Virus record (IMG/VR): IMGVR_UViG_3300001848_000312
Coordinates: 1-27,133 of that record
Length of the DNA stretch: 27,133 bases
Origin: a virus
Direction: 5' to 3' (one strand)
The stretch's first letter is position 1, and every line of letters starts with the position of its first letter. Positions 3,441 through 21,452 of the stretch are shown piece by piece. A model generated the notes under the pieces. That model was not told the origin of the DNA. It searched no databases and saw only the letters and a list, made by a program, of their open reading frames with translations. The position numbers and the translations under genes were made by a program.

Positions 3441-3442
3441 TC

Positions 3443-3751: not shown

Positions 3752-3752
3752 T

Positions 3753-4964
3753 ATGCCAGAAATACTAGCAGCAACCGCAGGCGAGAGTCTCTTAGCCTCT
3801 GAAGTCGCGGCCCCAATGTTTGCCGCAGATGCGTCGTTTGTTCCCGCTGCCGGGGCGCTTGGTGAACTTGGTCCAATGGCTGGCATGGGTGCTTTAGGCG
3901 GCGTAGGGGGGTTGTTGGGCGGCGGCGCTTCTTTTGCTGGAACAGGTCTTGGTGCTGGCGGTCTTCAAGGCGGGTTAGGAAGCATCACAGCCGCCGTTGC
4001 ACCAGAAGCGACTGCACAAGTTCAGTCAGCGTTGCAAGCCGCGCAACCCGGCGCTAATCAGATTGCAACTCAAGCAATGCCCGAAGCCACGCAAAGGTGG
4101 CTTGAAAGTTCAACGGCTGGGTATGGGAACGCCGGAACCTCGGACGTCATTAATAGGATAGCCCAAGGATCAGGGGATGAAATTGCTCGTTTGGGTGAGG
4201 CTCAAACATCTGCGCCAACAATGGCTGATGCAATAGACCAGCAAAGAATCGCGGATGCTTATAAGACTGCACAAGAAGTTGGCATGCAGCAACAAACCGG
4301 TAGCGGTGGTCTGATGGATGCCCTCAAAAGCATGGGTTCAAAAGTTGGTGATTGGTGGGATAAGCAACCCACAGAGAAAAAACTTCTTTATGGCGGCGCT
4401 GGACTTCTTGGGGCACAGTCTTTGTTTGGATCAAAACCCGGCGGTGTTCCCACCCCTACACCTTACAGTGGCCCTTTGAGCAAGTTCAAATACGACCCTG
4501 CTTACTACACGCCCACCATCCCCGCACAGCCGGTGCCTTATACGCCAATGTACCGGGACTACCTTAGCTACGCTGATGGCGGCACTGTCATGGATGGCGG
4601 TTCACCCGGCACGCAGTTACAAGGCGCAAACGATCCTTTGATGTTCCAAAGCACGGGTGTCGAACGTATGGCTGGCGGCGGTATCGCCAGCCTTGGAAAT
4701 TATTCGGACGGCGGTCAAATGCTCAAAGGCCCCGGAGACGGCATGTCTGACAGCATCCCTGCCACGATTGCCGGTAAGCAACCCGCCCGCTTGGCCAACG
4801 ACGAGTTCGTGGTTCCTGCCGATGTCGTGTCCCACCTCGGTAATGGGTCGTCAGACGCCGGAGCCAAGCAGTTGTACAAGATGATGGACAAGGTGCGTCA
4901 AGCACGGACAGGCAAAAAAGCACAGGGCAAGCAGATTGATCCAAGTAAGTACTTACCCACATAA
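3753..4964 (+). CDS. Gly/Ala-rich virion protein with conserved C-terminal 'DGMSDSIPATIAG' segment
   Basis: This 403-residue protein is preceded by a GGGAG ribosome site. The first 130 residues are Gly/Ala-rich and hydrophobic (GMGALGGVGGLLGGGASF), consistent with membrane interaction or flexible packing. The middle is helical and Gln-rich. The C-terminal third carries the motifs YADGGTVMDGG, MAGGGIASLGNYSDGG and GPGDGMSDSIPATIAGKQPA, then ARLANDEFVVPADVVSHLGN. I recall that C-terminal block as recurrent in phage virion proteins of uncertain function. Expression in the late operon between two GNAT-like genes fits an internal or ejected virion protein. No enzymatic motif is visible. Confidence 0.55.
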   Translation: MPEILAATAGESLLASEVAAPMFAADASFVPAAGALGELGPMAGMGALGGVGGLLGGGASFAGTGLGAGGLQGGLGSITAAVAPEATAQVQSALQAAQPGANQIATQAMPEATQRWLESSTAGYGNAGTSDVINRIAQGSGDEIARLGEAQTSAPTMADAIDQQRIADAYKTAQEVGMQQQTGSGGLMDALKSMGSKVGDWWDKQPTEKKLLYGGAGLLGAQSLFGSKPGGVPTPTPYSGPLSKFKYDPAYYTPTIPAQPVPYTPMYRDYLSYADGGTVMDGGSPGTQLQGANDPLMFQSTGVERMAGGGIASLGNYSDGGQMLKGPGDGMSDSIPATIAGKQPARLANDEFVVPADVVSHLGNGSSDAGAKQLYKMMDKVRQARTGKKAQGKQIDPSKYLPT

Positions 4965-4966
4965 CC

Positions 4967-5374
4967 ATGCCGTTGCACTACGTTGAACCCCGTTTTTTGC
5001 CGCAGGTGTGGCCGATTGCTGCCCCGCTTTTGCAAAAAGCAATTGACTTAGAACCCGGCGCAATCACAATTGAGCAAGCAGAGTATTTCATTCGGACTGG
5101 ACGTACTTTCTTGTTGGTCTGGGAAGAACCGGAAGTTGGCATCACTGGCGCTGTAACCGTTGAATTTATGGACTATCCAAGAGAGCGGGTAGCGCATGTG
5201 AATTTGATGGGTGGCAAAGGCATTGTTCGGGATCATGTGTTTCAAGAAGCCAAAGAGTGGATGAAAGCCCGAGGCGCTACAAAAGCTCAATGTTGGGCTA
5301 AAGGCACGTTGGTCGATATGTACAAAAAAATGGGCATGGAAAACACCCATCAGGTCATGAGGATTGATTTATGA
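4967..5374 (+). CDS. GNAT-like acetyltransferase-fold protein
   Basis: This 135-residue protein reads as a GNAT fold: FLLVWEEPEVGITGAVTVEF (beta strands 2-4), then VAHVNLMGGKGIVRD at the place of the acetyl-CoA-binding strand and loop, an amphipathic helix (HVFQEAKEWMKARGATK), and a C-terminal AKGTLVDMYKKMGMENTHQV in the 'YxKxGF' position. The loop MGGKGIVRD only partly resembles the Q/RxxGxG/A signature. Proteins of this size sit among the internal virion protein genes of T7-like phages (gp13), where a structural role is assumed. The start lies 2 nt after the preceding stop without a strong ribosome site, and the ATGA at the end overlaps the next start, indicating coupled translation. Confidence 0.55.
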   Translation: MPLHYVEPRFLPQVWPIAAPLLQKAIDLEPGAITIEQAEYFIRTGRTFLLVWEEPEVGITGAVTVEFMDYPRERVAHVNLMGGKGIVRDHVFQEAKEWMKARGATKAQCWAKGTLVDMYKKMGMENTHQVMRIDL

Positions 5375-6321
5375 ATATTGTCAAAAGTTTATTCAACTGG
5401 CTGACTGGGCAACAGTTCATTGCCTACCTTGGCGGCGGAGGCGGAGGCGGAGGATCACCACCCCCACCAGCACCCACACAGTCCAGCGTATACCAGACCA
5501 ACATCCCTGAATATGCTCAGCCTTATGTTGAAAGCATGCTGGGTTCTGCTCAGCAGCAAATCTACAACTACGACGCATCCGGCCATCCCACAGGCATTAA
5601 GCCTTACCAACCGTTCAGCCAAGACCCAAGCAAATACTTTGCAGGGTTTTCACCTATGCAAGAGCAAGGATTCAGCACTGTAGCGAATATGCAGGCGGGT
5701 CCGCAAGGTTTTCAACGGGATGTGGGCGCTTACATGTCGCCCTTTATTCAGAATGCTGTTGCCGCGCAAGAGCGCGAAGCTGCTCGCCAATCTCAAATTC
5801 AAGGACTGGGCCAACAAGCTCAAGCCACGCAAGCCGGTGCTTTTGGCGGGGCGCGAGACGCGTTAATGCGTTCTGAGCGTGAAAGGAACTTAGCCAACTT
5901 GCAAAGCGACATTGCCGCACAGGGTTATCAGAGCGCATTTGCCAATGCACAAAACCAATACAACACAGGGTTTGGGCAACAAACAGGTTTGGCGCAACTT
6001 CAGAACCAGTTTGGTGGTCAGCAGCAACAGTTGGAACAGGCCAAGATCAACCAACAAATTCAAAACTACGCCACGGCTCAGCAGTACCCCATGATGCAGT
6101 TGGCCAATATGAGCAACCTGTTGCGTGGCCTTCCCATGCAAGCCACCACTGTGCAGGGCTATCAAGCAGCGCCTAACCCACTGACACAACTGGGCGGTTT
6201 GGGGCTGACAACGGCTGGGATTCTTGGAAAAATGGGTGCAGAGGGTGGACAGCCCAAAGACTTTAAAAAGAAAAAAATGGCTGCTGGATTGGCCGATTTG
6301 GCTCTGATGAAAATGCAGTAA
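5371..6321 (+). CDS. Gln/Ala-rich internal virion protein
   Basis: This protein has 316 residues. The N-terminus has a short hydrophobic segment (LFNWLTGQQFIAYL), then eight glycines and a proline run (residues about 21-35). It continues with VYQTNIPEYAQPYVESMLGS and a long Gln/Ala-rich helical region (QIQGLGQQAQATQAGAFGGA, then RDALMRSERERNLANLQ), and ends with a Lys-rich stretch (KDFKKKKMAAG). Composition and position fit a helical internal or ejection protein, or a tail-associated protein. No enzyme motif is visible. ATG overlaps the preceding TGA and a GAGG ribosome site lies about 8 nt upstream. I recognise the general type (phage virion proteins starting near poly-Gly then 'PEYAQPY') but not a characterised function. 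Confidence 0.5.
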   Translation: MNIVKSLFNWLTGQQFIAYLGGGGGGGGSPPPPAPTQSSVYQTNIPEYAQPYVESMLGSAQQQIYNYDASGHPTGIKPYQPFSQDPSKYFAGFSPMQEQGFSTVANMQAGPQGFQRDVGAYMSPFIQNAVAAQEREAARQSQIQGLGQQAQATQAGAFGGARDALMRSERERNLANLQSDIAAQGYQSAFANAQNQYNTGFGQQTGLAQLQNQFGGQQQQLEQAKINQQIQNYATAQQYPMMQLANMSNLLRGLPMQATTVQGYQAAPNPLTQLGGLGLTTAGILGKMGAEGGQPKDFKKKKMAAGLADLALMKMQ

Positions 6322-6330
6322 GGAACAAAC

Positions 6331-8460
6331 ATGTTGAACGTTCAATCCTTGACCAACACAATGTCACGCATGACGTTGCCTCAGTTGCAACAGTATGCTG
6401 CACTGCACAAAGATGATCCATATGTGGTGTCTTTGGCGTTGTCAATCGCTAACCAGAAGAAACAGATGGGCGTAGCCAAAGCTGGTCAGGCAGGCATGAT
6501 GCCGCAGCCCAAAGTGGTGGATCAAGATATTTCAAATATCACAGCACCTCAACAGCCCGTGTTGCCAGAAGAAACAGGTATTGGTGCGCTCCCTGCACAG
6601 AACATGCAGGGTATGGGCATGGCCGCTGGCGGCATTGTGGCGTTTGATGACGGCGGTAGTACGACCGATAAGATGAGCTATCGTCAGTATGCAATCCAAC
6701 GCGCCAAACAACTGGGGTTGAATCCGCAACTGGTTGACAACATTTTTAAAACTGAATCCGGTTACGACCCCACCGCTAAATCAGGCACAGGCCCTGCGGG
6801 TATTGGACAGATTTCTAAATACCTTGCCAGAAGTATTTTTGGCCAGCGTAATGGCATCGACCCAAGCAAAGTGGGTAAGGAAGGCGACGATCGGTTTGAC
6901 CCGATCAAAAACATTAACACGTCGCTGGACTTCATGTCGCACCTGAATCAGAAGTACAAAGGCGACCCCACCAAAGTAGCTGTGGCTTATAACCAAGGCG
7001 AAACAGTGCTGGATAAGCACTTAAAAGAAAATGATGGTCAAGTTGTGCCTAAAGACCTGCCGTCCGAAGCACGCAAATACATTTCTAAAACGCTGACCAA
7101 TTTGATGCCTTTTGGCGCAGCCAATGCTGAAGAAATAAAAAAACCAGCACCAGCACCAGCACCAGCACCAGCACCAGCACCAGCACCAGCACCAGCAAAA
7201 CAAGGCGTAGCTGATTTAACAAGCAGTGATAATTACAGCGACCCCATGACAGGGTTTTCTCCAACACAAACAGCCGCCCCACAAACAACGGGACAGACTG
7301 CCAACGTCAGTCAAATCCCCGGAGGTGGTTACACAAATGCGCCTCCCGTTTATAAAGATACAAACACGTATTTTGGCGGTATTGCTGACGCGCTTAACAT
7401 TCCTCAAGAAACACAAAGAAATATTTCTAATACCTTAAATGCTTTGGGCGGATGGACTGCGCCTGTGGGAGGTCTTAACCGTGCTCGTTATGCTGCGGGT
7501 ATTACAAAAGGGCTTGAGCCAACAGCCGAAATGATTCAAAAAGCTGAACAGGCCGCACAAATTGCAAACACTCCTCGTTTGTTACCTCCTGCAAAAGCTG
7601 GATTAGAAGCTTTAAGCGAAGAAGCTGCGGCTACCCGCGCTGCTGCTGAAAATGCTCGTCGCATGCGCCAACTTGAAGAAGATCGTAAAGCCGCTATTGG
7701 TGCACAACAATCTGTAGAAGCCGCAACAAAAAGTGCAAACATTGCTCAAAAAACAGCTGAAGAAATTGCTGACGCTCAAAACGCCGCTAGATTAAATCAA
7801 GCAAAAATGACCGGTGCCGCCCAAGGTCTTGACATTATGCAAGCTGTTGATTCTGCAACAAGTCCGTCTGGTTTACCCACATTAAAAAATATACCAGCAG
7901 ACACCAGTGGTTTTGATACATCGGCATTTGAAAATTTAACTTTGCCAGAAACAAAAGAAGAACCCGCGCCTGTTGATGAAATGGGTAATGTCACAGGCCC
8001 TGCAAAAGGTGGCATAGACTGGAATGACATGATGATCAAGATGGGTCTTGGCATGATGGCGGGCAAATCTCCCCACGCCTTGACCAACGTCGGTGAAGCG
8101 GGTCTCCAAGCATTGCAACTCACAGCGGCTGAGAAGAAAGCAGCGTCTGAGCAAGCACTACACGAAGCTCAGGCTGAAATGGCAAGACAACACGGTATGT
8201 TGTTTGGTGCATTGCCAGCAATTAAAGCCGGACAGCTCAGCCAGAAAGACAGGATTGCAGCAGACGTAAATGCAGAAAAAGCATTCCAAACAATGCTTAA
8301 AGCAAATCCGTTTGCATATCAAACACCTGAGTCACAAATGATGTTGAGAAACCGACTTAAAGAAGCTGAGTATGACAGGGTGTTAAGCCGCAGTGGTGCT
8401 CAACCCGGAGCAGCGCCTGCTGCGCCAACAGGAGCGCCTAAATTCCTTGGTTTTGAGTAA
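6331..8460 (+). CDS. Internal virion protein with lytic transglycosylase (SLT) domain
   Basis: This 709-residue protein has an AAGGA ribosome site before its ATG. Residues about 97-110 hold the motif MAAGGIVAFDDGG. Residues about 115-250 form an SLT-type lytic transglycosylase domain: IFKTESGYDP with candidate catalytic Glu142, GPAGIGQIS, a DPIKNINTSLDFM helix, and VAVAYNQGE, matching the 'ES...G..G..Q......aYN.G' signature. Such domains cut peptidoglycan during genome entry. A (Pro-Ala)9 linker follows (7144-7197), then low-complexity sequence, an Ala/Glu-rich coiled coil (residues about 390-510) and a helical C-terminus. Comparable activity sits in gp16 of T7 and in ejection proteins of other podoviruses. 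Whether it is ejected with the DNA is inferred. Confidence 0.75.
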   Translation: MLNVQSLTNTMSRMTLPQLQQYAALHKDDPYVVSLALSIANQKKQMGVAKAGQAGMMPQPKVVDQDISNITAPQQPVLPEETGIGALPAQNMQGMGMAAGGIVAFDDGGSTTDKMSYRQYAIQRAKQLGLNPQLVDNIFKTESGYDPTAKSGTGPAGIGQISKYLARSIFGQRNGIDPSKVGKEGDDRFDPIKNINTSLDFMSHLNQKYKGDPTKVAVAYNQGETVLDKHLKENDGQVVPKDLPSEARKYISKTLTNLMPFGAANAEEIKKPAPAPAPAPAPAPAPAPAKQGVADLTSSDNYSDPMTGFSPTQTAAPQTTGQTANVSQIPGGGYTNAPPVYKDTNTYFGGIADALNIPQETQRNISNTLNALGGWTAPVGGLNRARYAAGITKGLEPTAEMIQKAEQAAQIANTPRLLPPAKAGLEALSEEAAATRAAAENARRMRQLEEDRKAAIGAQQSVEAATKSANIAQKTAEEIADAQNAARLNQAKMTGAAQGLDIMQAVDSATSPSGLPTLKNIPADTSGFDTSAFENLTLPETKEEPAPVDEMGNVTGPAKGGIDWNDMMIKMGLGMMAGKSPHALTNVGEAGLQALQLTAAEKKAASEQALHEAQAEMARQHGMLFGALPAIKAGQLSQKDRIAADVNAEKAFQTMLKANPFAYQTPESQMMLRNRLKEAEYDRVLSRSGAQPGAAPAAPTGAPKFLGFE
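7144..7197 (+). repeat. Hexanucleotide microsatellite (CCAGCA)9 encoding (Pro-Ala)9
   Basis: Nine perfect tandem copies of CCAGCA follow directly after the Lys-Lys end of the transglycosylase region, giving an in-frame Pro-Ala linker. Unit length is a multiple of three, so gain or loss by slippage keeps the frame and only changes linker length. Complete uniformity of the codons suggests recent expansion. Confidence 0.95.
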
Positions 8461-8469
8461 ACTACCGCC

Positions 8470-11400
8470 ATGCCAATAGCCCGCTTTGAATTTCCAGACG
8501 GACGCATCGGACGATTTGAAGTTCCAGAAGGAACCACGCCCGAACAAGCGCAAGCAATGATTGCTCAAAGTATTGGGCAAATGGACATCCCGCCAGAGCC
8601 GAAACCGCAAAGTGGTTTAATGGCGGCGGCTGGCTCGGCGTTTAGAGGCGGTGTTGGAGAAACGGCAGAAAGTCTGGGTGAGCTTACCGGCATTGAAGGA
8701 CTGACAAAATTTGGCAAACGCCAACAAGCCGCCGCCGCAAAAGCGTATGTGCCCACATCCGAAGCCGACATTGAAGCCGCATCAAAACGCGGGTTGTTCC
8801 CTGAGCTTGGCGCATACGCTACTCAATTTTTAGAACCCTACGTTCAAGGCGCTGCCGGTATTGCAGCACGCTACGGTGTGCCAACTTTGGCCAGCATGGC
8901 CGCGCCCGAGGCCGCACCTTTACTGGGAGCCGCCGCATTTGCAGCAACCAACGCCCCCATCCATATTGGTGAAGTGCTCAAGTACCAAAAGGAACAAGGG
9001 CTTCCAAGAGACGAAGAGTCCGCAATTGTGTACGGCTTGGCGCGTGCCGGAGTTGATTCGCTTTCTGGTGCAGTGTTGGCTGGGCCTATGCGCGGTGTCC
9101 TTGGCAAAACGGCTGTAGAACAAGCACAAGCTTTGGCGCCTAGAGTTGCCAGCGGTGAAATTTCTGCTGCTCAAGCGGCCACAATGGTCAGTGGCAGACT
9201 TAAAAACGTTGTGCAAGCTACGGCTCAAAATGCTGTTGTCGGTACAGGCATGATGACAGCGGACGAAGCACTTCTTCGTGCTTCCGCTGGACAAGATATT
9301 ACATCCCCTGAAGCCATCAAATCATACGAAGAACAAGCCAAAGGTGCAGTTGCGTTGGCTCCTATGTTTGGGCTGTTACACGGCTTTGGTCAACCGGAAG
9401 CTGCTAGAAAAATTTTGCGTGGCGCAGAAGCCAAAGCTCCAGTTTTAGAGGCGCCGCCAAGCGAAGCCGAAACTGTTCCCGAACCTACCCTGCGTGGTGA
9501 GCAACCGCCTGAAACAGCGGCAGGTACGCCAGAAGCAGAAACACTTAAAGAAGCCATTTCGCCAAAGAAAAAGGCGGCAATGGACAAACAGCTTGCCAAA
9601 GAACAGCAAGAGTACTTAAAGAAATACCAAGATTTAGCGGCGCAACGTGCAGCAGATCAGGCTGAGCGTGACCGTATTGCTGCACTATCGCCAGAAGAAT
9701 ACATGCTGGAACAAACAGGAGTTGTACCGGCAAGCATAAAACTACCCAAAGACATGATGCCTACACCTGTAGGCTTTCAACCATTAACGCAAATACAAGC
9801 TCAAGAAAAAGGCGCTTTTGATTACGCTGCGCAACAAGTTAAGTTGGCACAAGACAGACATTTCTTGCCCGCTTCTGGTAAAGCTGACAGGGATGCGGTT
9901 AAAACCTATGTGGACTACTTACTGGTTAACCCTGATTTAGCCAGACAGGTTGCTTTGTCTGATCAACCGATTATGGGGTTGAGCGCCCAGTTTAATCAGA
10001 ATGTAAAGAGTCTTTTGCTTAACGCGCTCAAATTACACGATACATCGGCCAAAGAAACCCAAGCGGCAGAACAAGAACGGCGTAGGGCTTTGTTTACGCA
10101 AAGCCCAGCAGAAGCCAACCAACAATTGTTGGCAGCGATGCAAGAAAGCCCTGACCTGCAAGCACAGCGGCGGGTTAGGGAAGAGCGCGAACGCCTTGAG
10201 AACATTCAACGGCAAAACAGACAAGCGCCCACACCTTACAGAGGTGAGCCAAAACTCATGGCTGAACGCCTAAAGACAACCATTCCAGAGTTGCCTGAAG
10301 GTGAAGAACCGCCTTTGATGCGTGAAGACGATCCGTTGCTTAACCAATTGGTTCAGGCTTTGCCGGGAGACAACGGTCGCATAGTGCCGGGGCAAATTTA
10401 CGAAGGCATGGGCGTTAGCCGTGGCAAACTAAAAGACTTGCAGTTGCAGTTGTCAATTGCGCGGATGACCAATAACAAGCTTGTGGCAGACCGGTTGCAA
10501 GCTGAGATCAATGACCAACGGCAAAGTCTAAAAGAACCGCGTGAGAGAGTTGGCACAGGTGAAAAATCAGCGGAGCTTGCTGGCACAGTTTTAGAAAACC
10601 GTGACAAACAAATTGAAGCAGACAAGTTTAGAGATGACCAACGGCTTATTCTGTTGGGAATGTTCAAGACTTTAAACACACGCAATCCATTAAACATAAA
10701 GCAAACCCGTAGAAGCGCAACGCTTAGTTTGCCGGGGGTGTTTGAAAAACGCATCAGCGATGCCAAAGACGCATTTGTTGAAGCACATCAAAAAGAAATT
10801 GAAGCACGGCGGGAAGTTTTTGGTTTGCCCCCTATGGCAGATTGGGAGCGCGCAGAAGCCCGTGCCAGAGCACTTGAGGCTTTAAACGAACTTGAACAAC
10901 GCTGGAACACTTTTGGTGCGCCTGTTGAGGCTGTGCAAGTTTTGCAGCAACAGGTACGGGACGCTACCAATGAAAACGTACTTAACGCTGCAAAACGGTT
11001 TAACAAAGAACAGCAAGAAACAACCGCAGAAAAACTTACCAAGCCACGCCAAAAGTACGTCAACTACAGAGGCGAGGAAGTAAGCGTTCCTGAAAAACCA
11101 GCGGCTCCACGGATTGGCGCTCCTGAGCAGTTAACACTTAGAGGTCGCCCAAACATTCCGTCAAACGAAAAGGCTGCGGCATTTAATTTTATTGATGCGG
11201 TGCTTGACCAGCTTGAGACCCGTGTTCGTGCAGTACCTACGGCTGAACGCAAAACTGTTGCCAAAGTTGGCAGCATGGAAGACATTGCCAAACTGTTTGA
11301 GACAACAACAGGAGAAGGCAGAACAGAAAAAATAGATCAAGCATCTATTGCGCTGTTAAATCGTTTGCGTGACCATTTAGAAACATCTACAGACCCAGAG

Positions 11401-14400
11401 TTTATTTCTCTTGCCCGTGAACAAGCACAGCGAATCATGGAAGGCAACTTGCCCGATCCAGTGGCTGTACGCGACCTTGATGAAATGATGAAAGGTCAGG
11501 AAGTATCGGGACGCAGCGCGGCTAAGCCGTTATCTGCTGAAGAAACAACCGCTGTTGCACGCGGTGAAAAGAAATACGAAGCTCAACCGCAACAAGAACT
11601 GTTTCCAGAAACTTCTGTTCAAGTTGCTCGTGCTACCCCAAGAAACTTTCAAAAGTTGTTGGACTCTAAAAATGTCCAAGGGATGCGAGAAGCTTTGGCA
11701 AAACAAAAAGAAGACAACCAAGCGGTGCTTGAGACAGTACGTAAGTACGTACCTTCTTTACAAAAAGCAATGCAAACCGCAACTGCATCGTTAAATAAAG
11801 CATTGGAAAAGAAAGAAACGCTTACCAAAGCTGCGGCTGAAGCAAGGAAAGAACCTGAATGGTATGCGCCTGCGGTTAGAAAAATTGTAGAACTGGAGTC
11901 TGCATTACAGTCTATCCCCCCACGTCTTGACTTGTTGCGTAGCATTCAGCGTTCTTTAAAAAATCTTAATGCTGAAGACAAAGCGTCGTTGTTGCAATTG
12001 ACAAAAGCGGCACTTGATGAAAAAACTTTAACAACAAAAGAACGTGCAGAATTTAACGAAATTATTCAAGCGTTGGCTAACCCTGACTCCTTTAACGCAG
12101 AAATAAACAAATTAAACGACATTGTTAAAAACGCTTCGGCAGTTGTTGATAACGCACGTAAAACCCTTGATGACTTGATGACCAAGTATCAGTCTGGTTC
12201 TCAAGCAGTTATGCGGCGCTCCATCCAAGAATCGGCAGATAAAGCAGGAAGAAAAGTTGAGCGTTTAACTCAAGAGATAGCCGACCTTAGAAAACAAATT
12301 GCGGCTGAAAGAGAAGCAAAAGAAGCCGAAGAAAAAGCAAAACTTGTTCCAAGTGAATTAGAAACACCAACAGAAGAATACGAAACTGCTGCACAACGCG
12401 GTCGTGAAGGTTTGGGTTTGCCCGGAGTCCGTGTTGAAAAAGACACAGCGCGCATGGCTCAGAACATGCACAAGATTCGTAGCGAAATTGGCAGCCTCAA
12501 CGAAGAATTGCGCAAAGCTGAAAAAGCGAATGACACTGAACGAATTGCTGAAACTAAAGCTAAGATTGATGATGCAGAAGCACGCTTGGCTTCTGTGTAC
12601 AGGGATGCACCGTTGTCCGTTAAAGAGTTGTTGACTCCAGAAGAAGAACGTGATGCTCGTGATGCCGCTGATAAAGTTGCGGCAAAGGATGCCGCTGCTG
12701 AAGCCAGACGCAGAAAACGCAAAGGTGAAGCTGCTCCCAAGCTGGTTCCAATAGAACAAACAGCATTACTTAAAGAAGTTCGCGGTTCAAAAGTCATTCA
12801 ACCGTACAAAACTGCTAGGGTTGCTGAAGTAGCACAAAAAGTAACTGACCGCCTTGTCAAACAAAAAACAGAACTGGCTGACATTCAACGCCGGATTGCG
12901 TATCTCAAGGACAACAACAAACATAAAGTGTCTGGCCGTTTGACCGACACGTTTAAAGACTTGCAGGGCAAAGAAACTTTGCTCAAAGAAAAACTTAAGA
13001 AAACTCAAACACTGCAAAACAAAATTGTTAGTGTTGAAAAAACTGCTGAAACACTGGCCAGCAAAGCGGCGCAAGAAGAAGCCCTGCGCAAATCTAAAGC
13101 TGCTGAAAAAGAATCAGAGCGTTTTGCCCGTGGTGTTGAAGTTGAAAGCCCTGACCTGACGCCAACCCAAATCCGGGCAATTGACGATAACGACATCACT
13201 GCTGCGTATGCAGACATTGCCAACGATGGTAGTAACAGCAAAATAAATCGCGTAGTAGCGCAGCGGCTGGCCGTGTTGTTGGATGAAACAGATATTGCCA
13301 TTCGTGATAAGTTAACTGACAAAGACGGTAAAGAAGTTTTGGGCATGGCTACAAGCCGTGTTATTGGCTTGAACCGTAATGGTGGTTTGTCTCAAGAAGT
13401 GTTGCTGCATGAAGGCGTACACGCTGCTACTGAGCGCATCATTCAGATGCCGGAAGACAAGCTAACAAAAACTCAGTTGGTTGCTAAACGTGAATTGCAG
13501 GCTTTGCATGCCGCAATAAAAAACGACCCCCGCATTACCAGCAAAACGGCAAAGGGAAGTCTGTCTGAGTTTGTAGCAGAAGTCATGTCTAACCGCAATT
13601 TGCAAGAACAGTTGCGGGAAAAAAGATGGAAGCTGTCCGACGCTTGGGAAGGTTTCAAGAGCATCATCTTGCGGATGCTTGGTATTGATCACCCAGAAAC
13701 GATGTTGGGCGCGGCGTTGCAATCGGTTGATGCACTTATGGTTCCATCAAGCGTTAGATTCGATATGCCAGAACGCCCCGTTAGCAGACGCTTGTCACAG
13801 AAAGACATTGCTGCACTGCATGACGGTAGTAACTCCATGCGGCAGTTTGCTGAGCAGTTTGGCAAAGACATCAAGATGAAAGACCGCACACCTGAAGATG
13901 TGGAGCGGATTGCCAAAAATTATTTGATTGACATGGTACATAATCCTGAAAAGTATGTTGCTGCACCATACACAGTGAGAGATTTAAAACGCAGGAATGC
14001 AGTGCTTACCAAAGAACAAGAAGAAGGACTTGCAAAAATAAAAACTCTTAAAGAACAGTTTGAAACAGATGCAGCTAAATATCGTGCTGGCGAACCCTAT
14101 GACGAAGATTCTGAATACTACAAAGAAATAACTAAACAGCTTGAAAAGCAAGAGCGTGAAATAAACATTCTTGAAACAAAGATGGGATCGCTAGATTATT
14201 TTACTGCTACCAGAATGTCTGATGGAAAACAGTACGATCCTGAAAACCCTTTGCATTACGTTGAAGCCGACGCAATTACGCTTGCTAATTTGCAAGCGCA
14301 GGGTAACGCATCTTTAAGGGATAAAGAAGCACGAAGAATTCGTGACAAACGCCAAGAAGATTTAGAAAGCCTTGTTGGTTTAATGTCATCCAATATGTCT

Positions 14401-17400
14401 TACACGTTGGCTGAAAATGCACTGGTGGCTAAAGCTGCTGCTAAGTACGCAGTAGTGTCTGACAAAAACGGTCGTTTGAAACTTGCCACAATTGAACCGA
14501 CCAATCGTCATAACGTCGCCGTTGTTAGCCTCGATGCTGCCGACGCTGTTATCCGTGAGCTTCGTGCTGGCAAAAACTTAAAAGAAGCATTCCTTGATGG
14601 TTTACAAGCCAGTGCCGATAAAGCAATAAAAGCAAATGAAGTTAAAGACGGTTGGCAGAAATTTAATCAAACTAAAAGAGAAGAAACAGAACAAGACTTA
14701 AAAAAGCTGTATACCGAAGAAGAATTTCACAATGCTTGGATGCAAACGGGCTATGATTTTGAAGATGATAATACGCTTATTGAGTACATGATTGCTGACG
14801 GATTATTACCAGACAGACGTGTAAAAAATTCAACTTTTGAAAAAGCAGCTATTAAATTAAACAAAGCGTGTGCTGGAACGTCTTGGTGTACAGGCACATC
14901 AGAAAATTACGCAAGAGATCATACTGCCAATGGAGATTTTTACATCTACTATAAACAAGGCCGCCCAGAAGTTGCGGTGCGTATGAACGGCCAAAATGAA
15001 ATTGGTGAGATTCGTGGCAATAATCCCGACCAAGCTTTGAACAAAGAACAACAGGAAATTGCTAAAAGTTTTTTACAAAACAGCAAATTTGATAAAGCTG
15101 ATAAATACTTAAACCAGTTTGAATTAAAACAAAAAGCAATTCAAGTTGCCAAAGGCGAAGCTGCTTTTACTCTTGAAGATTTGGTTAACATTAATCCGGT
15201 ACGCAACGGCAAAGTTGACGCAAGCCGTTTGTTAAATTTTAGATTGCTTGATGGTCAAGCGCGCAGAGAAGACCCGTCGGAAGCTGTTGATAAATTTTTT
15301 AATGACAAAATAACAAAAATAGTTGAAGACGCGTATGAAGATGGCCATTTTATTGGTGAAGACGTGCATGTTTGGCATAATGGTGTTGAACCATTTGAAC
15401 TTAATGGCAAAAAATACACCCCAAAACCAGACCAAATAAAAACGGCCTATACCTTAACTCTTACATCAGCCTCTGGAAAAACTGTTTTTTCAAATTTAGA
15501 AAATGTTAAAGCGGTAAGTGTGCTTGGAGGCAACATGTATAGAGTCGAAGCAACTTTACCAAAAGTAAAACATCTTGAACTCATCAAAACTTGGGGAGAG
15601 AGTGTTGACACTGCTGTATTAAAACTTGCTCCGGGTGCAACCGTAGACCTTATTAGAGAAGGCAATTATGACGAACCTTCCCACATAACCGTTAAAGGCG
15701 CTGAGTTTGTTAAAAGTTTTTCCGCAGGTGTTAAGCCCGAAGAAAAACTGTTTGTGAAGTTACCAGATGCAAAATATGTTGGAGAGCATAACGAAGACGT
15801 AACTGTGTATGCGCCCAAGCGTATTGCAGACAAACCACCCATAGAAGAATTGGTTGAGCGCTCGGCTGAAGAACCGCGCTACGCTCGTCGTGTGGCTGAG
15901 TACGCTCCAGAATTGGATAAAGCTGGCGCTTTGGCTGAAAGGTTGATTGATACTAAACGCCCGTTGACGGAAAAGCTTACGGCTGATGCGCTTGGTCGCG
16001 GTGCTTTGGAATTTGAAACCCGGATGGTTGACCAGTTTGCTCCTGTGGCAAAACTTACTCGCAAAATGGATAGCCTTAACGGCATGCAAATGATGCACTT
16101 TTTGCGTATGACCGGCCAGCGCATGAATTTGCTTGGCGCAACTGTTGGGTTTGGTGCGCCAGAACTGCGCAAAATAATCCGTCCTGACGGAAGAATGGAA
16201 TTTTTATATCAGGTTAAACCCGGTGCCAGCCTTGCTGAAGTAGCTGAAAAGTTAGCGCCTGCTAACGATTTGACTGGAAGCCCAGACGCAGCGGCAAACT
16301 TGTTTTCGTTGTACACAATTGCCGAACGTGCCAAATCTGTGGGGTTGAACAAACTTAACTACCGAGTCACACAGGCAGAACTGGATCAAGCCATGGCCCA
16401 AATAAAGGCCGTGCCAAATTTGGAAAACATCTTTAAGAATGCTGCCAGAAGCTACGAGAAATTCAACCGCAACATGGTGCAGTTTGGTGTGCAGACCGGC
16501 GTGTTCTCTCAAGAGCAAGCCAACAAAATGCTACAAAACGCCGATTACGTACCCTATTATAGGGAAAACACCGACGGCACTGTGTCTCTGATGATGGGCA
16601 ACGAACATATTGTCAGCATGGGCAACGTCAAAGACCAGCCCTACTTGCACGCGCTGGTTGGTGGAGACCAGCGTATTGCTGACTTTATGACCAGTTCAGT
16701 AAGAAACGCCAACATGATTTTGGACATGGGTTTGCGCAATCAAGCCACCAAGAGCGTTGCAAATGAATTGCAAAAAATTGGGCTGGCGCAGATCATCGAA
16801 GGCAAAACCCGCGCTGGTAGAGACATCGTTCAGTTCAAAGAAGACGGTAAAGATTACTTTGCTTTTATCAGGGACTCTGAAGATGTGCCTGCGGAGTTGT
16901 TGGTTAAGGGATTAGAAGGCATCCCCGTCCAGACCAGCGCTTTATTGCAAATGGCTGGCATGCCAAGCCGTTTGATACGCAACGCTTTCTTAGCCAACCC
17001 AATTTCTGCTGGCCGCACGCTCTTTAAAGACACCATGTCTTCTGTGATTGCCAGCGGTTCTGGGTTCAAAGGCATGTCAAAAGCGCTGCGTGATGTTGGC
17101 GATAATTTGATGGAGCTTAGAGGCATTACCGGCGGGGAAGTCTTTACTGGTTTGCCACAAGACATGTCTAACATTTTGAGACAAATTCAAACAGGCAAAC
17201 CGGGATGGGAATCTTTGTTGGCCAAAGCTTTTGTGATGCATGCCAAAGCCGACGCCACAACACGTCAACTGCGGTATGAAAACTATCGCAAACAAGGGTT
17301 GTCTGAAATGGAAGCCACGCATATGGCGCTGGAGTCCATGAACTTCACACGTCGTGGCATCTCTCCAAGCATCCATGTGCTAAACACGTTGCACCCGTTT

Positions 17401-18450
17401 ATGAATTCTCAAATTCAAGGGTTGAATACGCTTATCAAAGCTATTCGAGGCAACATGACACTTGATGAGAAACTTAAAATTAGAGACAAAATTATCAAGC
17501 GCGGTATGTTGTTGGCTGGAGCCACGATGTTTTACAGCGCCATGATGCAAGATGATGATACGTACAAGAACGCTTTGCCGGAACAGAAGTACAACAACTT
17601 CTTTGTTCCTTTCCCCGGCGTAGACGAGAAAGTGCGCATACCCATTCCGTTTGAAGCTGGCATTTTGTTTAAGTCTGTACCAGAAGCGTTGATTAATTAC
17701 ATGTACGGGCACGACAAAGATGCCGCAGCAGGTATGCGACAGGCTATTCTTAAGCTGATTCCTGCTGGTGAGTCGTATGGTGTTCCACAAATATTGTTGC
17801 CCGGTGTTGAAGCTGGCTTGGGTAAATCGTTCTACACAGGCCGCGACATTGAAAGCAGACGCGAACAGGCGCTGGTTCCCGGACAACGTACTCGTGACAC
17901 CACAACCGGTTTTGCTGCGGCTTTGGGAGATGCGCTAAACATTTCACCAATCAAAATTGACCACCTAATAAATGGTTACACAGGCCAGATTGGTTTGGCT
18001 GTGACACAAATGGCAAGTTCTCTTGTGTTCGGCCCCAAGATGGTGGGGTCTGAAGTGGCCAAGCATTTGTCTCAGCAGCCTATTGTGGGTTCGCTGTTCC
18101 AGCCTGAGTATGCTGGTGCAGTTGTTGAAGACGCTTACCAAATGGTGAACGAAGCTGAACAAGTTAAGAACACTGTCAATGACATGCTTAAGAAAGGCCG
18201 CGTTGCTGAAGCAAAAGCGTTCATGGAGAAAAATGCCGTTGAATACGCCAGAGCACAGATAGCTGCGCCGCAGTTCACATCGAGAATGAACCTGATCAAT
18301 CAGCAAATTCAAGCCGTCAAAAATGCACCCAACTTGTCTGGCGATGAGAAGCTTGAAAAAATTGATCAGCTTAAAAAGCAACGCTCACTTTATGCTGAGT
18401 ACTTCATGCAGCAGGCAAGTAAAACCATACCCCAAGAAGCCCGCCCATGA
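8470..18450 (+). CDS. Giant polyvalent virion (ejection-type) protein with metallopeptidase-like and WCT/solenoid regions
   Basis: One uninterrupted frame of 3326 residues occupies over a third of the window. Residues 1-40 form a small adaptor-like segment (FEFPDGRIGRFEVPEGTTPE). Residues 130-165 are hydrophobic and Ala-rich, possibly membrane-active. Residues about 330-1560 are Lys/Glu/Gln-rich and largely coiled coil. Residues 1647-1651 (HEGVH, followed by AAT) form an HExxH zinc-peptidase motif, with Glu1700 or Glu1704 (LSEFVAEVM) as third-ligand candidate. Residues about 1826-2448 hold an unusual module with CAGTSWCTG (Trp2139, Cys2140), GDFYIYYKQGRPEVAVRM, and a solenoid-like tail. Residues about 2660-3190 (LIRNAFLANPISAGRTLFKD; VRIPIPFEAGILFKSVPEAL) resemble 'large polyvalent protein associated' domains of phage proteins. 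Position at the end of the internal-protein cluster and size suggest ejection into the host with the DNA. I see no polymerase motifs. Domain names are from memory; the role is inferred. Confidence 0.7.
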   Translation: MPIARFEFPDGRIGRFEVPEGTTPEQAQAMIAQSIGQMDIPPEPKPQSGLMAAAGSAFRGGVGETAESLGELTGIEGLTKFGKRQQAAAAKAYVPTSEADIEAASKRGLFPELGAYATQFLEPYVQGAAGIAARYGVPTLASMAAPEAAPLLGAAAFAATNAPIHIGEVLKYQKEQGLPRDEESAIVYGLARAGVDSLSGAVLAGPMRGVLGKTAVEQAQALAPRVASGEISAAQAATMVSGRLKNVVQATAQNAVVGTGMMTADEALLRASAGQDITSPEAIKSYEEQAKGAVALAPMFGLLHGFGQPEAARKILRGAEAKAPVLEAPPSEAETVPEPTLRGEQPPETAAGTPEAETLKEAISPKKKAAMDKQLAKEQQEYLKKYQDLAAQRAADQAERDRIAALSPEEYMLEQTGVVPASIKLPKDMMPTPVGFQPLTQIQAQEKGAFDYAAQQVKLAQDRHFLPASGKADRDAVKTYVDYLLVNPDLARQVALSDQPIMGLSAQFNQNVKSLLLNALKLHDTSAKETQAAEQERRRALFTQSPAEANQQLLAAMQESPDLQAQRRVREERERLENIQRQNRQAPTPYRGEPKLMAERLKTTIPELPEGEEPPLMREDDPLLNQLVQALPGDNGRIVPGQIYEGMGVSRGKLKDLQLQLSIARMTNNKLVADRLQAEINDQRQSLKEPRERVGTGEKSAELAGTVLENRDKQIEADKFRDDQRLILLGMFKTLNTRNPLNIKQTRRSATLSLPGVFEKRISDAKDAFVEAHQKEIEARREVFGLPPMADWERAEARARALEALNELEQRWNTFGAPVEAVQVLQQQVRDATNENVLNAAKRFNKEQQETTAEKLTKPRQKYVNYRGEEVSVPEKPAAPRIGAPEQLTLRGRPNIPSNEKAAAFNFIDAVLDQLETRVRAVPTAERKTVAKVGSMEDIAKLFETTTGEGRTEKIDQASIALLNRLRDHLETSTDPEFISLAREQAQRIMEGNLPDPVAVRDLDEMMKGQEVSGRSAAKPLSAEETTAVARGEKKYEAQPQQELFPETSVQVARATPRNFQKLLDSKNVQGMREALAKQKEDNQAVLETVRKYVPSLQKAMQTATASLNKALEKKETLTKAAAEARKEPEWYAPAVRKIVELESALQSIPPRLDLLRSIQRSLKNLNAEDKASLLQLTKAALDEKTLTTKERAEFNEIIQALANPDSFNAEINKLNDIVKNASAVVDNARKTLDDLMTKYQSGSQAVMRRSIQESADKAGRKVERLTQEIADLRKQIAAEREAKEAEEKAKLVPSELETPTEEYETAAQRGREGLGLPGVRVEKDTARMAQNMHKIRSEIGSLNEELRKAEKANDTERIAETKAKIDDAEARLASVYRDAPLSVKELLTPEEERDARDAADKVAAKDAAAEARRRKRKGEAAPKLVPIEQTALLKEVRGSKVIQPYKTARVAEVAQKVTDRLVKQKTELADIQRRIAYLKDNNKHKVSGRLTDTFKDLQGKETLLKEKLKKTQTLQNKIVSVEKTAETLASKAAQEEALRKSKAAEKESERFARGVEVESPDLTPTQIRAIDDNDITAAYADIANDGSNSKINRVVAQRLAVLLDETDIAIRDKLTDKDGKEVLGMATSRVIGLNRNGGLSQEVLLHEGVHAATERIIQMPEDKLTKTQLVAKRELQALHAAIKNDPRITSKTAKGSLSEFVAEVMSNRNLQEQLREKRWKLSDAWEGFKSIILRMLGIDHPETMLGAALQSVDALMVPSSVRFDMPERPVSRRLSQKDIAALHDGSNSMRQFAEQFGKDIKMKDRTPEDVERIAKNYLIDMVHNPEKYVAAPYTVRDLKRRNAVLTKEQEEGLAKIKTLKEQFETDAAKYRAGEPYDEDSEYYKEITKQLEKQEREINILETKMGSLDYFTATRMSDGKQYDPENPLHYVEADAITLANLQAQGNASLRDKEARRIRDKRQEDLESLVGLMSSNMSYTLAENALVAKAAAKYAVVSDKNGRLKLATIEPTNRHNVAVVSLDAADAVIRELRAGKNLKEAFLDGLQASADKAIKANEVKDGWQKFNQTKREETEQDLKKLYTEEEFHNAWMQTGYDFEDDNTLIEYMIADGLLPDRRVKNSTFEKAAIKLNKACAGTSWCTGTSENYARDHTANGDFYIYYKQGRPEVAVRMNGQNEIGEIRGNNPDQALNKEQQEIAKSFLQNSKFDKADKYLNQFELKQKAIQVAKGEAAFTLEDLVNINPVRNGKVDASRLLNFRLLDGQARREDPSEAVDKFFNDKITKIVEDAYEDGHFIGEDVHVWHNGVEPFELNGKKYTPKPDQIKTAYTLTLTSASGKTVFSNLENVKAVSVLGGNMYRVEATLPKVKHLELIKTWGESVDTAVLKLAPGATVDLIREGNYDEPSHITVKGAEFVKSFSAGVKPEEKLFVKLPDAKYVGEHNEDVTVYAPKRIADKPPIEELVERSAEEPRYARRVAEYAPELDKAGALAERLIDTKRPLTEKLTADALGRGALEFETRMVDQFAPVAKLTRKMDSLNGMQMMHFLRMTGQRMNLLGATVGFGAPELRKIIRPDGRMEFLYQVKPGASLAEVAEKLAPANDLTGSPDAAANLFSLYTIAERAKSVGLNKLNYRVTQAELDQAMAQIKAVPNLENIFKNAARSYEKFNRNMVQFGVQTGVFSQEQANKMLQNADYVPYYRENTDGTVSLMMGNEHIVSMGNVKDQPYLHALVGGDQRIADFMTSSVRNANMILDMGLRNQATKSVANELQKIGLAQIIEGKTRAGRDIVQFKEDGKDYFAFIRDSEDVPAELLVKGLEGIPVQTSALLQMAGMPSRLIRNAFLANPISAGRTLFKDTMSSVIASGSGFKGMSKALRDVGDNLMELRGITGGEVFTGLPQDMSNILRQIQTGKPGWESLLAKAFVMHAKADATTRQLRYENYRKQGLSEMEATHMALESMNFTRRGISPSIHVLNTLHPFMNSQIQGLNTLIKAIRGNMTLDEKLKIRDKIIKRGMLLAGATMFYSAMMQDDDTYKNALPEQKYNNFFVPFPGVDEKVRIPIPFEAGILFKSVPEALINYMYGHDKDAAAGMRQAILKLIPAGESYGVPQILLPGVEAGLGKSFYTGRDIESRREQALVPGQRTRDTTTGFAAALGDALNISPIKIDHLINGYTGQIGLAVTQMASSLVFGPKMVGSEVAKHLSQQPIVGSLFQPEYAGAVVEDAYQMVNEAEQVKNTVNDMLKKGRVAEAKAFMEKNAVEYARAQIAAPQFTSRMNLINQQIQAVKNAPNLSGDEKLEKIDQLKKQRSLYAEYFMQQASKTIPQEARP

Positions 18451-18560: not shown

Positions 18561-21452
18561 TCAAGTCCCTTCCAAGGGTAATGGATTAATAAATTCTTCA
18601 TCGGCATCCGTGATCGGCCTACTGATCTTGATGGCAGAGACGCGCATAGGCGGTGCAGAAGTCTTGGACATCATATCCTTCTTGTGGATATAAGTCACGG
18701 TGAACTGTTCTTCCAAATGGCGCTTGAGGTTGGCGTACCCGAAACTCATGTTGGAGCAGAATGACTTGAGCAGACGCTCCTCCACGTAGAAGTCGATATG
18801 CCCCGCTGTCACGCCGTGCTCGACCCGTCCCATAACCTCCGCCCGGGTGGTGTTGCGATCGACCATTGAGCCATCCCCAAGGTGCGCCAGAGGGCCAGCT
18901 TTCTCGCCATACTTGACCACCACAAACCGGCCTTGGTACTCCTGCACAAAGGCATTCAAGACATCCTCGGCGGTGCGGTAGCCGCCCTTGATACTGCCAC
19001 GCTGGAGGCTGATGCGCTTGCGGTAGCTTGCGATGATTTCTTTCAGGGGGAACTCAGCGATGTCGGCGTGTTCCTTGTTCATCAGGATGCCAGCAGCCAC
19101 GGCGCAGCCGATGCCAGCCATCCAGTACCGCTCGTCGTTGGGCGCTTTGTACTCCACGTACATTTGGCGCACAGTCTTGGGCACTAGGGTTTCTACTAAT
19201 TCCAAGTTGTCCACCATGTACTGCACCAGCACTTCCCCGGCCACGGCGTAGTTGTCTTGCAGGGATTTGATGATCTCCACCTCGTCGGCGTCCCACACCA
19301 GTTTCTCGTCCATGATGTACTCAATCAGGCGGCGCAGTTCCCCCTCTGAGGCGTGCTTGCGTGTGCCCGTCAGGTAGTCCACGGCGTGGGTGTTGGAGGA
19401 CATGATGGCGATAGCCGACCAGACGGACAGGTTTAGCCGTTCTTTGTTGGCTCCAGACTCCATCCGCTCCTTGCCGCGCCCCTCGCTCAAACTGAGCAAG
19501 AATGCCGGGAACCACTCAAAATCATCCCGGTTCTTGCTGGTGATCTCATCCGTGATGAGGGGGTTGCTGTGGAGAAGACCGAGGCGTTGCTGCATCGCAA
19601 CAGGCGATGTGCCAGCCCCGGTGCGGTAGTGGATGGGATGCCCCCAGATGGATGCCGCGCCGTCCAGCGCCAGCGATTTGCCAGTACCCGACTCGGTCGA
19701 GGCGCAGTGGATGGTCAGCCCGTGCAGCTTTGTGAAACGCATCAGCGGAGACCCAGCGCCCATGAGGATGATGGCCAAGTGATCCCATAGCTTTTTCCTG
19801 ACCAACAGGTTGATGAAGTCGCGCCATTTCTCCAGCGTCCCGGTGGGGCGGGAATTCATGGTGATGTTCTCAAGCCCGGGCATCGGCACTTCGATCGGCT
19901 CTCGGTGGGCGGCGTAGATTTTGCCGCCGAACACGTAGGTGTTGTTGGGTTGCCAGCCGTAGCTGGAGGGCACGTCGATGGGGCGCTTCTCACTGCTCAT
20001 CTTCTCGGCGCATGCCCGGACATAGTCGTACAGATTCTTGTCGTTGCCTGAGCCAAATGCGGCCAACACGTTCTGCTGAGCCAGCGCCTTGACTGTCTCG
20101 TCCTTGCTGACCACAGCCTTTTGAGGGAACGAAATGTCCATTGTTTTGTAGTTGCGCACCGCCAGCATGTGGATGAGGTGTTCGCCGTTGTGGTTCAAGA
20201 TGTCCACCGGGAACAGGTCGTAGGGCAGCAGCATGACTTGGCGTTTGGTGACGTTGCCGCTGGCATCCGTGTCTTCCTTCTCGATGAACACGCCGCCGTG
20301 CTGTCCGTATGCGTAGCCCCGAGGCGGCTCAGGGCGCACGATCTTTTTTGTGGCTGCGTTTGGTGTGACAACTTCAAGGACGGTCTCGGTCTTGGTGACC
20401 GCCACATCTCGCCCCAACCCCAAGGGATTGGTGATCTTCCCCCGATGCTGACACCCGTCACAAACGCCGGGATTCTCCGAATCAAATTTGGTACAGGGGT
20501 AGGGGCCTTTGATCTCCGACAGTTTCTGCCGCATCCTGTCTTCGCTGTATGGGTGCAGTTGGGTCAGCCAGAGGGCTGCTTTCTCCCCATCCTCACACTT
20601 CTGCGCAATGCTCAGCCACCCACGCCACAACGGCTCCATGCCATCCTCTGATGCGTTCTCAGCGTAAAAGCGCAGTTGCTCACAGCCTTTGTCCTCTTTG
20701 GTTTTCTTGAGGATGTTCTTGAACAGCGTAATGCTGTTCTCAAACAACTTGACCGTGGTCGATGTCGGTGCTGGCTCAGGGCGTTGTCCGGGCAGTGCCA
20801 GCGCAGTCTGTGTCGGGGGTCTGAGAGCGGGTGGGAGTGCCTTGAGTTCTTGCTCAATGTGCTTGGCCAAGTCATCAAAGTCAAAGATGTCGCCTTCAGC
20901 CAGTATGCGCACCGGGCGCGGCTTCGCATACTTCGCCTTGTTGTTGAATGTTCCGGGCATGCGCAGCACTCGGGCAGAGTCTGCCGTCACAGTCATGTCG
21001 ATGCTCAGTTTCTCTTGCTTGCACAGTCGCTTTAAGTTTTCTGCAACAGGCTTCCAGTCCTCGATAGCCACATCCTGCGTGAACGGCCAGTAGCAGTGCA
21101 AGCCACCACCTGAGTCCACGATGTAGGGTGAGCCAAGCAAGTCAAGGCCGGTCTTGACCAAGAAGTCATTGAGCGCCAGTGCTGCTGATTTCTTTGACTC
21201 GTAGCCGTCCATGTCGATGAACAGCGATCGGATGCACCGGGCGTTTTCTGCTGTGCGTTTGCCTTTGTTCTCAAACGTGGACAGCGCAAAGTAGATGTCC
21301 TTGTTGTCGCCCCACTTCGCTACAGCCGGGGGCAGTTCTTCCAAATGTTCAACAAAATTGTGCTCCTTCTTTTTTGTAGTTAGTTCCGCCGCGCAATACA
21401 GTCCGTTGGCTGGGGACGGCAGAACAACCGCTAGAAACTCAAGCGGGGTCAT
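18561..21452 (-). CDS. Primase-helicase: AEP-like primase fused to a P-loop ATPase/helicase
   Basis: This is a 963-residue protein. Residues about 70-170 carry an archaeo-eukaryotic-primase pattern: LFIDMDGY (Asp80, Asp82), SGGGLHCYW (His119), and LSIDMTVTADSARVLRMPGT. Residues 320-336 form a Cys/His cluster (C320, C331, C334, H336), a probable zinc site. The C-terminal half has a Walker A motif (ESGTGKS, Lys592) inside a region resembling the DUF927-type helicase domain, followed by LLHSNPLITDEITS, which fits Walker B. The enzyme would prime and unwind DNA for the family A polymerase encoded in the same operon. An AAGGAC ribosome site precedes the ATG, 14 nt after the stop of the 62-aa gene. 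It is the last gene of the operon. Role by family is fairly secure; polarity and oligomer state cannot be read. Confidence 0.8.
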   Translation of the reverse strand: MTPLEFLAVVLPSPANGLYCAAELTTKKKEHNFVEHLEELPPAVAKWGDNKDIYFALSTFENKGKRTAENARCIRSLFIDMDGYESKKSAALALNDFLVKTGLDLLGSPYIVDSGGGLHCYWPFTQDVAIEDWKPVAENLKRLCKQEKLSIDMTVTADSARVLRMPGTFNNKAKYAKPRPVRILAEGDIFDFDDLAKHIEQELKALPPALRPPTQTALALPGQRPEPAPTSTTVKLFENSITLFKNILKKTKEDKGCEQLRFYAENASEDGMEPLWRGWLSIAQKCEDGEKAALWLTQLHPYSEDRMRQKLSEIKGPYPCTKFDSENPGVCDGCQHRGKITNPLGLGRDVAVTKTETVLEVVTPNAATKKIVRPEPPRGYAYGQHGGVFIEKEDTDASGNVTKRQVMLLPYDLFPVDILNHNGEHLIHMLAVRNYKTMDISFPQKAVVSKDETVKALAQQNVLAAFGSGNDKNLYDYVRACAEKMSSEKRPIDVPSSYGWQPNNTYVFGGKIYAAHREPIEVPMPGLENITMNSRPTGTLEKWRDFINLLVRKKLWDHLAIILMGAGSPLMRFTKLHGLTIHCASTESGTGKSLALDGAASIWGHPIHYRTGAGTSPVAMQQRLGLLHSNPLITDEITSKNRDDFEWFPAFLLSLSEGRGKERMESGANKERLNLSVWSAIAIMSSNTHAVDYLTGTRKHASEGELRRLIEYIMDEKLVWDADEVEIIKSLQDNYAVAGEVLVQYMVDNLELVETLVPKTVRQMYVEYKAPNDERYWMAGIGCAVAAGILMNKEHADIAEFPLKEIIASYRKRISLQRGSIKGGYRTAEDVLNAFVQEYQGRFVVVKYGEKAGPLAHLGDGSMVDRNTTRAEVMGRVEHGVTAGHIDFYVEERLLKSFCSNMSFGYANLKRHLEEQFTVTYIHKKDMMSKTSAPPMRVSAIKISRPITDADEEFINPLPLEGT

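Follow-up and report, generated by a model that had tools for sequence, protein, structure and literature searches.

A fixed W-C-T head and an exchanged β-solenoid tail in the giant ejection-type protein of a P22-like podovirus, with free-standing bacterial relatives

What is the compact module embedded in the giant protein of a P22-like podovirus, and what might it do for the phage? The window analysed here, that is, the whole stretch of 27,133 nucleotides, is the linear 27-kb IMG/VR contig IMGVR_UViG_3300001848_000312, which carries an open reading frame (ORF) of 3,326 residues. A preliminary description, made from the letters alone, had singled out in this protein a core built around Trp-Cys-Thr (W-C-T; hereafter the WCT core), followed by a solenoid-like tail, and had suggested an effector delivered to the host. 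The strings it quoted lie where it had placed them and in the frame of the giant protein: besides CAGTSWCTG (Table 1), these are GDFYIYYKQ (residue 2155), EIGEIRGNN (2177), LPKVKHLEL (2363) and LKLAPGATVDLI (2384). We find a new arrangement in which a fixed head is joined to an exchanged tail, both in phages and, separately, in tandem bacterial paralogues.

Searches of IMG/VR with the window core retrieved first 5 and then 47 viral loci, and scanning a single genome from each species turned up 199 matching places in bacterial genomes, 78 of which were kept; the similar uncharacterised proteins to which the preliminary description had pointed thus exist. An alignment of 97 cores, phage and bacterial together, shows no variation at W, C, T, G-D-F-Y, P, A, E, R-G and Q; the Cys and Trp that had been called fixed are among these positions. 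Mean identity over residues 2134–2200 is 0.64, and in phage pairs the core is under purifying selection, with a ratio of nonsynonymous to synonymous divergence (dN/dS) of about 0.08–0.19, as against 0.2–0.5 in the tail. AlphaFold2 (AF2) predicts that the core folds alone, as its supposed compactness would imply (126 residues, 97 relatives; predicted local distance difference test, pLDDT, 90.4; predicted template modelling score, pTM, 0.82), and a longer model of residues 1825–2468 (644 residues, 76 relatives; pLDDT 86, pTM 0.78) couples this independent fold to a β-solenoid. No family or solved structure was matched by the core in Pfam, NCBIfam, PHROGs, PADLOC or the sequences of the PDB, a Foldseek search of the 644-residue model against the PDB returned nothing below E 0.2, and a literature search on WCT proteins found nothing specific. 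Scattered matches below the cut-offs were rejected: YkuD (E 0.15), Cel124_C (E 0.006, 6 of the 97 members) and DUF2268 (E 0.004, long segment). The preliminary description would have been refuted by a confident match to a known structural domain or by the lack of an independent fold; neither outcome was obtained, and the WCT core is a genuine domain, absent from family databases, with a predicted fold of its own.

The tail behaves differently. Its model is almost all strand, and it aligns with parallel β-solenoids such as RsaA (6p5t) and pectate lyase (3t9g) over 143–153 residues (Z 7.6–8.6); it differs from them in sharing only 10–13% identity, in having no recognised enzyme motif of those families and in being hypervariable. 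Of the two folds that had been proposed for it, a β-solenoid or a leucine-rich repeat (LRR)-like stack, the first is therefore borne out by the strand model and the solenoid chains matched. A classical LRR was rejected for the window tail, as the model has no repeat-unit helices and no LRR family of Pfam is matched.

A segment-wise comparison of phage pairs whose giant proteins are near-identical showed the linker, the solenoid and the segment behind it to be 43–60% identical between phages that are 90–100% identical on both flanks. The pair L031/L032, for example, is 97–100% identical before the head, 90–92% in the head, 43–52% from +90 to +430 residues after the W, and 86–98% beyond; the same dip is seen in L030/L032, L038/L039, L009/L010, L013/L016, L023/L026 and L045/L046. 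Synonymous divergence (dS) in L031/L032 is 0.13–0.53 outside the tail and 1.2–1.5 inside, and since dS rises together with the divergence, the tail has been replaced by a diverged allele and not altered by amino-acid change alone. The converse pair L028/L034 has tails 97–99% identical and heads 93–94%. These identity and dS profiles show that linker and solenoid form a cassette exchanged between related phages. In L009/L010, L007/L009 and L023/L026, a second variable region, 46–49% identical, lies about 650–900 residues before the WCT motif; this part of the N-terminal half could be another exchanged cargo.

In bacteria the WCT core is found in a separate protein with a median length of 650 residues and the WCT motif at about residue 264, mostly in housekeeping neighbourhoods. 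The hosts are Patescibacteria of many classes (14 of 192 sampled genomes, the centre genome counted), uncultured Bacilli and Mycoplasmatota, Erysipelotrichaceae, and one Bdellovibrio. A profile alignment of helical part plus core is colinear between phages and bacteria (E 3e-28), and near-invariant Y, W, K and Q residues of the helical part are common to both; the helical part alone gives a weak similarity (E 0.08) and convinces only in combination with the core. For linker and tail, profile comparison established no homology between the two forms. Tandem bacterial copies have heads 90–99% identical and tails 58–74% identical and of differing length, and the tails are of several kinds: LRR-like repeats in about 50 of 85 by a rough motif count, another C-terminal domain in 13, and DUF4116 repeats (E 9e-75 and 1e-94). 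The bacterial relatives thus show the same fixed-head, variable-tail plan, built with other tails.

Several of these loci have features of their own. At L056, L063, L067 and L074, two or three WCT genes stand in tandem; their heads hardly differ, but their tails, rich in repeats, do. About 13 Patescibacteria-type proteins (L084, L085, L090, L100 and L110 among them) share, in place of a repeat tail, a C-terminal domain that ends in FVFRLRK or similar. The only copy outside Patescibacteria and Firmicutes-type genomes, in Bdellovibrio sp. (L120, 3993–6008), has a hydrophobic, signal-peptide-like N-terminus, which suggests export; no such start was seen in the other bacterial WCT N-termini looked at. 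In a tree of cores, a branch (support 97/83) separates every phage core from the bacterial ones, from which we conclude that the phage form is old and was not picked up recently. Giant ORFs, whole or fragmentary, contain all but one of the 47 viral loci. The exception, L053, is a bacterial-type free-standing gene on a contig classed as viral, with a core near-identical to that of bacterial genome L125, and is possibly a misclassified contig or a host flank. Among isolated phages and plasmids, tblastn returned no relative, whether the query was the window core or a bacterial one.

A fixed head with a variable tail fits any arms race, not solely that of an effector with its host, and, with the one exception above, the free-standing bacterial copies bear no sign of export. 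Both points would suit an antitoxin- or immunity-like protector, or a superinfection-exclusion factor, whose tail tracks the proteins of rival phages and not those of the host. We regard this as quite unlikely, given that no toxin or defence gene was recognised among the neighbours and that the core matches no PADLOC family at E < 0.02.

The surroundings of the module indicate how it might reach a target (Table 1). Genes on the + strand span 202–18450 and run from a P22-like stabilisation/virion protein (PHROG 3287; podovirus relatives include DSL-LC04 and Pag-Yong1) through small genes and ejection-type genes to the giant ORF, which comes last. On the − strand, the genes of the window include those for a DUF927 protein, an SNF2 helicase and a PD-(D/E)XK nuclease; in DSL-LC04, an SNF2 helicase and a PD-(D/E)XK nuclease adjoin the DNA transfer protein. 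The 963-residue DUF927 protein (18561–21452), weakly RepB-primase-like at its N-terminus, has relatives in Pseudomonas phage Rollin and in Rhizobium phages, labelled there as putative integrase.

Table 1. Features of the giant protein and its neighbouring genes, in window coordinates
Feature	Position (nt)	Strand	Basis
DNA-ejection-protein-like neighbour gene, 316 aa	5371..6321	+	PHROG 4287, E 8e-6
Transglycosylase (SLT) ejection protein, neighbour gene, 709 aa	6331..8460	+	Pfam SLT, E 7e-19; PHROG 342 (internal virion protein with endolysin domain), E 7e-20
Giant polyvalent/ejection-type protein, 3326 aa	8470..18450	+	Open frame; LPD38; same strand as and directly 3' of the SLT and DNA-ejection-like genes
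Zincin-like region, residues 1601–1800; HEGVH at residue 1647 (nt 13408)	13270..13869	+	Motif and conservation only
Helical N-terminal part of module, residues ~1848–2119, including GWQKFNQ strand (~2061–2067)	14011..14826	+	AF2 model; conserved residues
WCT core domain, residues 2109–2234: helix, helix, three strands, two helices	14794..15171	+	AF2 model; 97-sequence alignment
CAGTSWCTG motif, from residue 2134 (W2139, C2140, T2141)	14869..14895	+	Invariant W-C-T
Variable cassette (linker, β-solenoid, segment behind), residues ~2229–2569; borders from relatives	15154..16176	+	Identity drop and dS rise
β-Solenoid, residues 2293–2447	15346..15810	+	AF2 strands with pLDDT > 90; VIA-align matches to β-solenoid chains
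LPD38 domain, residues 3029–3188	17554..18033	+	Pfam PF18857, E 3e-29

Because of its SLT and DNA-ejection-like neighbours, its LPD38 domain and its podovirus relatives, one of them labelled 'large polyvalent protein', the giant protein is, by its sequence, a polyvalent protein of ejection type. Polyvalent proteins of phages, as defined by Iyer et al. 2017 (PMC5512222), are likewise very large multidomain proteins of the ejection or structural gene block, with LPD38, a zincin-like motif beside a cargo module, and probable entry with the DNA; what sets the window protein apart is that no named family among those searched matches its WCT core or its solenoid. The virion RNA polymerase of N4, a giant protein of about 3,500 residues with domains like beads on a string, is ejected through the tail and a periplasmic channel (PMC12633501); it is of similar size, and differs in carrying as cargo an RNA polymerase, none of which was recognised in the window protein.

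From this setting it might be argued that the module is a structural or DNA-translocating part of the ejectosome without a host target, its solenoid merely building the virion or channel. It does sit in an ejection-type protein, β-solenoids are common in phage structural proteins (a tail fibre and a tailspike are among the VIA-align matches of the tail), and a PHROG labelled internal virion protein matches one member weakly (E 0.09). Three observations nevertheless make this reading rather unlikely. The same head–tail plan occurs in free-standing bacterial proteins; exchange of the tail is less to be expected of a purely structural part; and other phages, podoviruses among them, match the C-terminal part of the giant protein alone, from about residue 2573, with the module unmatched, which makes it dispensable for ejection in general, in a comparison that covers solely more distant phages sharing the C-terminal part. 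Large polyvalent protein, RelA/SpoT and DNA methylase are the annotations of these relatives, and the one in Pag-Yong1 has about 2,770 residues. A viral scan with the C-terminal part, by a method that requires exact peptide words, gave no match.

Of the giant ORFs, 42 extend 400 residues or more upstream, and 39 of these carry an HExxH motif 367–543 residues before the W. It is this zincin-like region, and not the core, that forms the most conserved stretch of the giant protein (identity 0.64–0.70 among 34 relatives, 0.74 in the best 70-residue window), a correction to the preliminary description, which had called the core highly conserved-looking. Zincin-like domains are thought to cleave polyvalent proteins (PMC5512222). 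In a Bacilli genome (L126), two WCT genes are adjacent (3870–5954 and 6330–8594); the first, highly diverged (tree branch 3.1), opens with a zincin-like HELLHFF motif joined to the WCT core and resembles the phage arrangement in a small free-standing protein.

As for the core itself, its model runs through a helix (13–25), helices (32–46), three strands (49–54, 57–66 and 69–75) and helices (84–97 and 102–119), and in the longer model a strand at 237–241, the GWQKFNQ motif, precedes it. All 50 PDB matches listed by VIA-align for the core are GNAT (Z 4.0–5.5, 75–103 residues aligned), at values below the Z of 8 under which, according to the tool's note, a match may reflect merely a common arrangement; among viral models, Foldseek lists many acetyltransferases, together with internal virion protein A. 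After the GWQKFNQ strand, the modelled order of helix, helix, three antiparallel strands and helix resembles β1 to α3 of the GNAT fold (RimI, RibT and others). As polyvalent proteins are known to carry GNATs (PMC5512222), the core could be a truncated, acyltransferase-type GNAT that acylates a host protein. We hold this to be distinctly improbable: beyond α3, where GNATs continue with β5-α4-β6-β7, the core model has two helices and no strands; the [RQ]xxGx[GA] pyrophosphate loop for coenzyme A is absent, the corresponding β4/α3 loop being RGNNPDQAL, with the conserved form RG....Q; and profile comparison of WCT with GNAT scores 9.4, below the shuffled maximum of 18.0. On these grounds an ordinary GNAT was rejected.

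A different relationship was suggested by PcfJ (PF14284), a family of conjugative plasmids and phages of Gram-positive bacteria in which the conserved residues read C ... I-Y-F ... T-x-E ... Q-x-x-G. For the comparison, 16 domains of this family were collected from plasmids, phages and two genomes. In hhalign, the WCT and PcfJ profiles score 28.1 over 74 columns (pairwise E 4e-4), as against a maximum of 16.4 in 120 column shuffles and 8.9 for the reversed profile; with the first strand included, the score is 23.5 against a maximum of 19.8 in 200 shuffles. When PcfJ was scanned along the alignment of the giant protein, WCT windows were the best 3 of 92 (scores 27–30, 62–67 columns), and the next-best window outside WCT reached 24.6 but over 27 columns only. 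The two are colinear over 62–74 columns, around a Cys conserved in both, three strands and an E/Q..G motif. They differ in that the WCT core has GTxWCT in place of HCVGSY of PcfJ, AxR in place of TxE, and E-x-RG in place of Q-x-x-G. The Pfam PcfJ model was not matched by the window core at E 1, nor was it among the 25 families listed for the 97 members; PcfJ-like viral models appear in Foldseek only at E 0.9–1.9, and PcfJ proteins are without the helical part and solenoid of the WCT module. Taken together, the profile comparisons suggest that WCT core and PcfJ are probably remote homologues, short of membership in PcfJ. To our knowledge, the function of PcfJ is not established.

The predicted strand register, as distinct from coordinates, places D2156, Y2158, A2169, R2171, E2180 and R2182 on one face of the sheet; Q2188 opens the helix that follows, and the W-C-T loop is close by. 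Such an arrangement would suit a small catalytic or ligand-binding site, though it lacks the histidine that a cysteine protease triad has.

We are evenly balanced on the account that we prefer. In it, a polyvalent ejection protein would carry the module as a complete cargo, which the neighbouring zincin-like domain probably releases; the constant head would then act on a host component, or bind one, with the variable tail determining which. The giant protein would be packaged and, judging from gene context and the precedents of polyvalent proteins and the N4 polymerase, probably enter the bacterium together with the DNA. There the zincin-like domain may cut the polypeptide and free the module. 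The helical part and the GNAT-like, PcfJ-related core, with its invariant polar cluster of C2140, D2156, R2171, E2180, R2182 and Q2188, would do the work and stay constant, probably as a small enzyme or as a domain that binds a ligand, and the solenoid, the exchange of which is observed, would serve as recognition part, aiming the same activity at a changing component of the host, a defence system or a rival element.

Several points weigh against this account. No known catalytic motif was recognised in the core, and its invariant cluster was deduced from the predicted strand register. The zincin call rests on HExxH and conservation, with no Pfam family matched, and the lineage L047/L050/L052 is without an upstream HExxH. 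Other parts of the giant protein vary too, for example the N-terminal half, at 47–49% in some pairs. Fast change of the tail can also mean weak constraint; exchange is favoured because dS jumps and identity recovers sharply downstream.

The anatomy and the fold of the module are well supported, and the analysis extends the preliminary description by the exchanged tail, the upstream zincin-like domain, the GNAT-like outline, the remote link to PcfJ and the free-standing bacterial family. More tentatively, and with less confidence than in the phage account, these may be parts of one unnamed domain superfamily, in which the WCT head, divergent from PcfJ and GNAT-like, would be the fixed working part of target-switching proteins: phages would inject it within giant ejection proteins and swap its solenoid specificity tail by recombination, and Patescibacteria and reduced-genome Bacilli would keep free-standing tandem copies with LRR-like, DUF4116 or other tails.

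We know of no description of tail exchange between near-identical polyvalent proteins. The finding extends the probable cargo of phage ejection proteins by a domain that family databases do not contain, in a single giant ejection-type polypeptide of which one part swaps as a cassette between otherwise near-identical proteins, and it links this phage module to a widespread bacterial family of fixed heads and variable tails. Natural allele pairs such as L031/L032 make recognition inside the cell by a presumably injected phage protein testable by pull-down.

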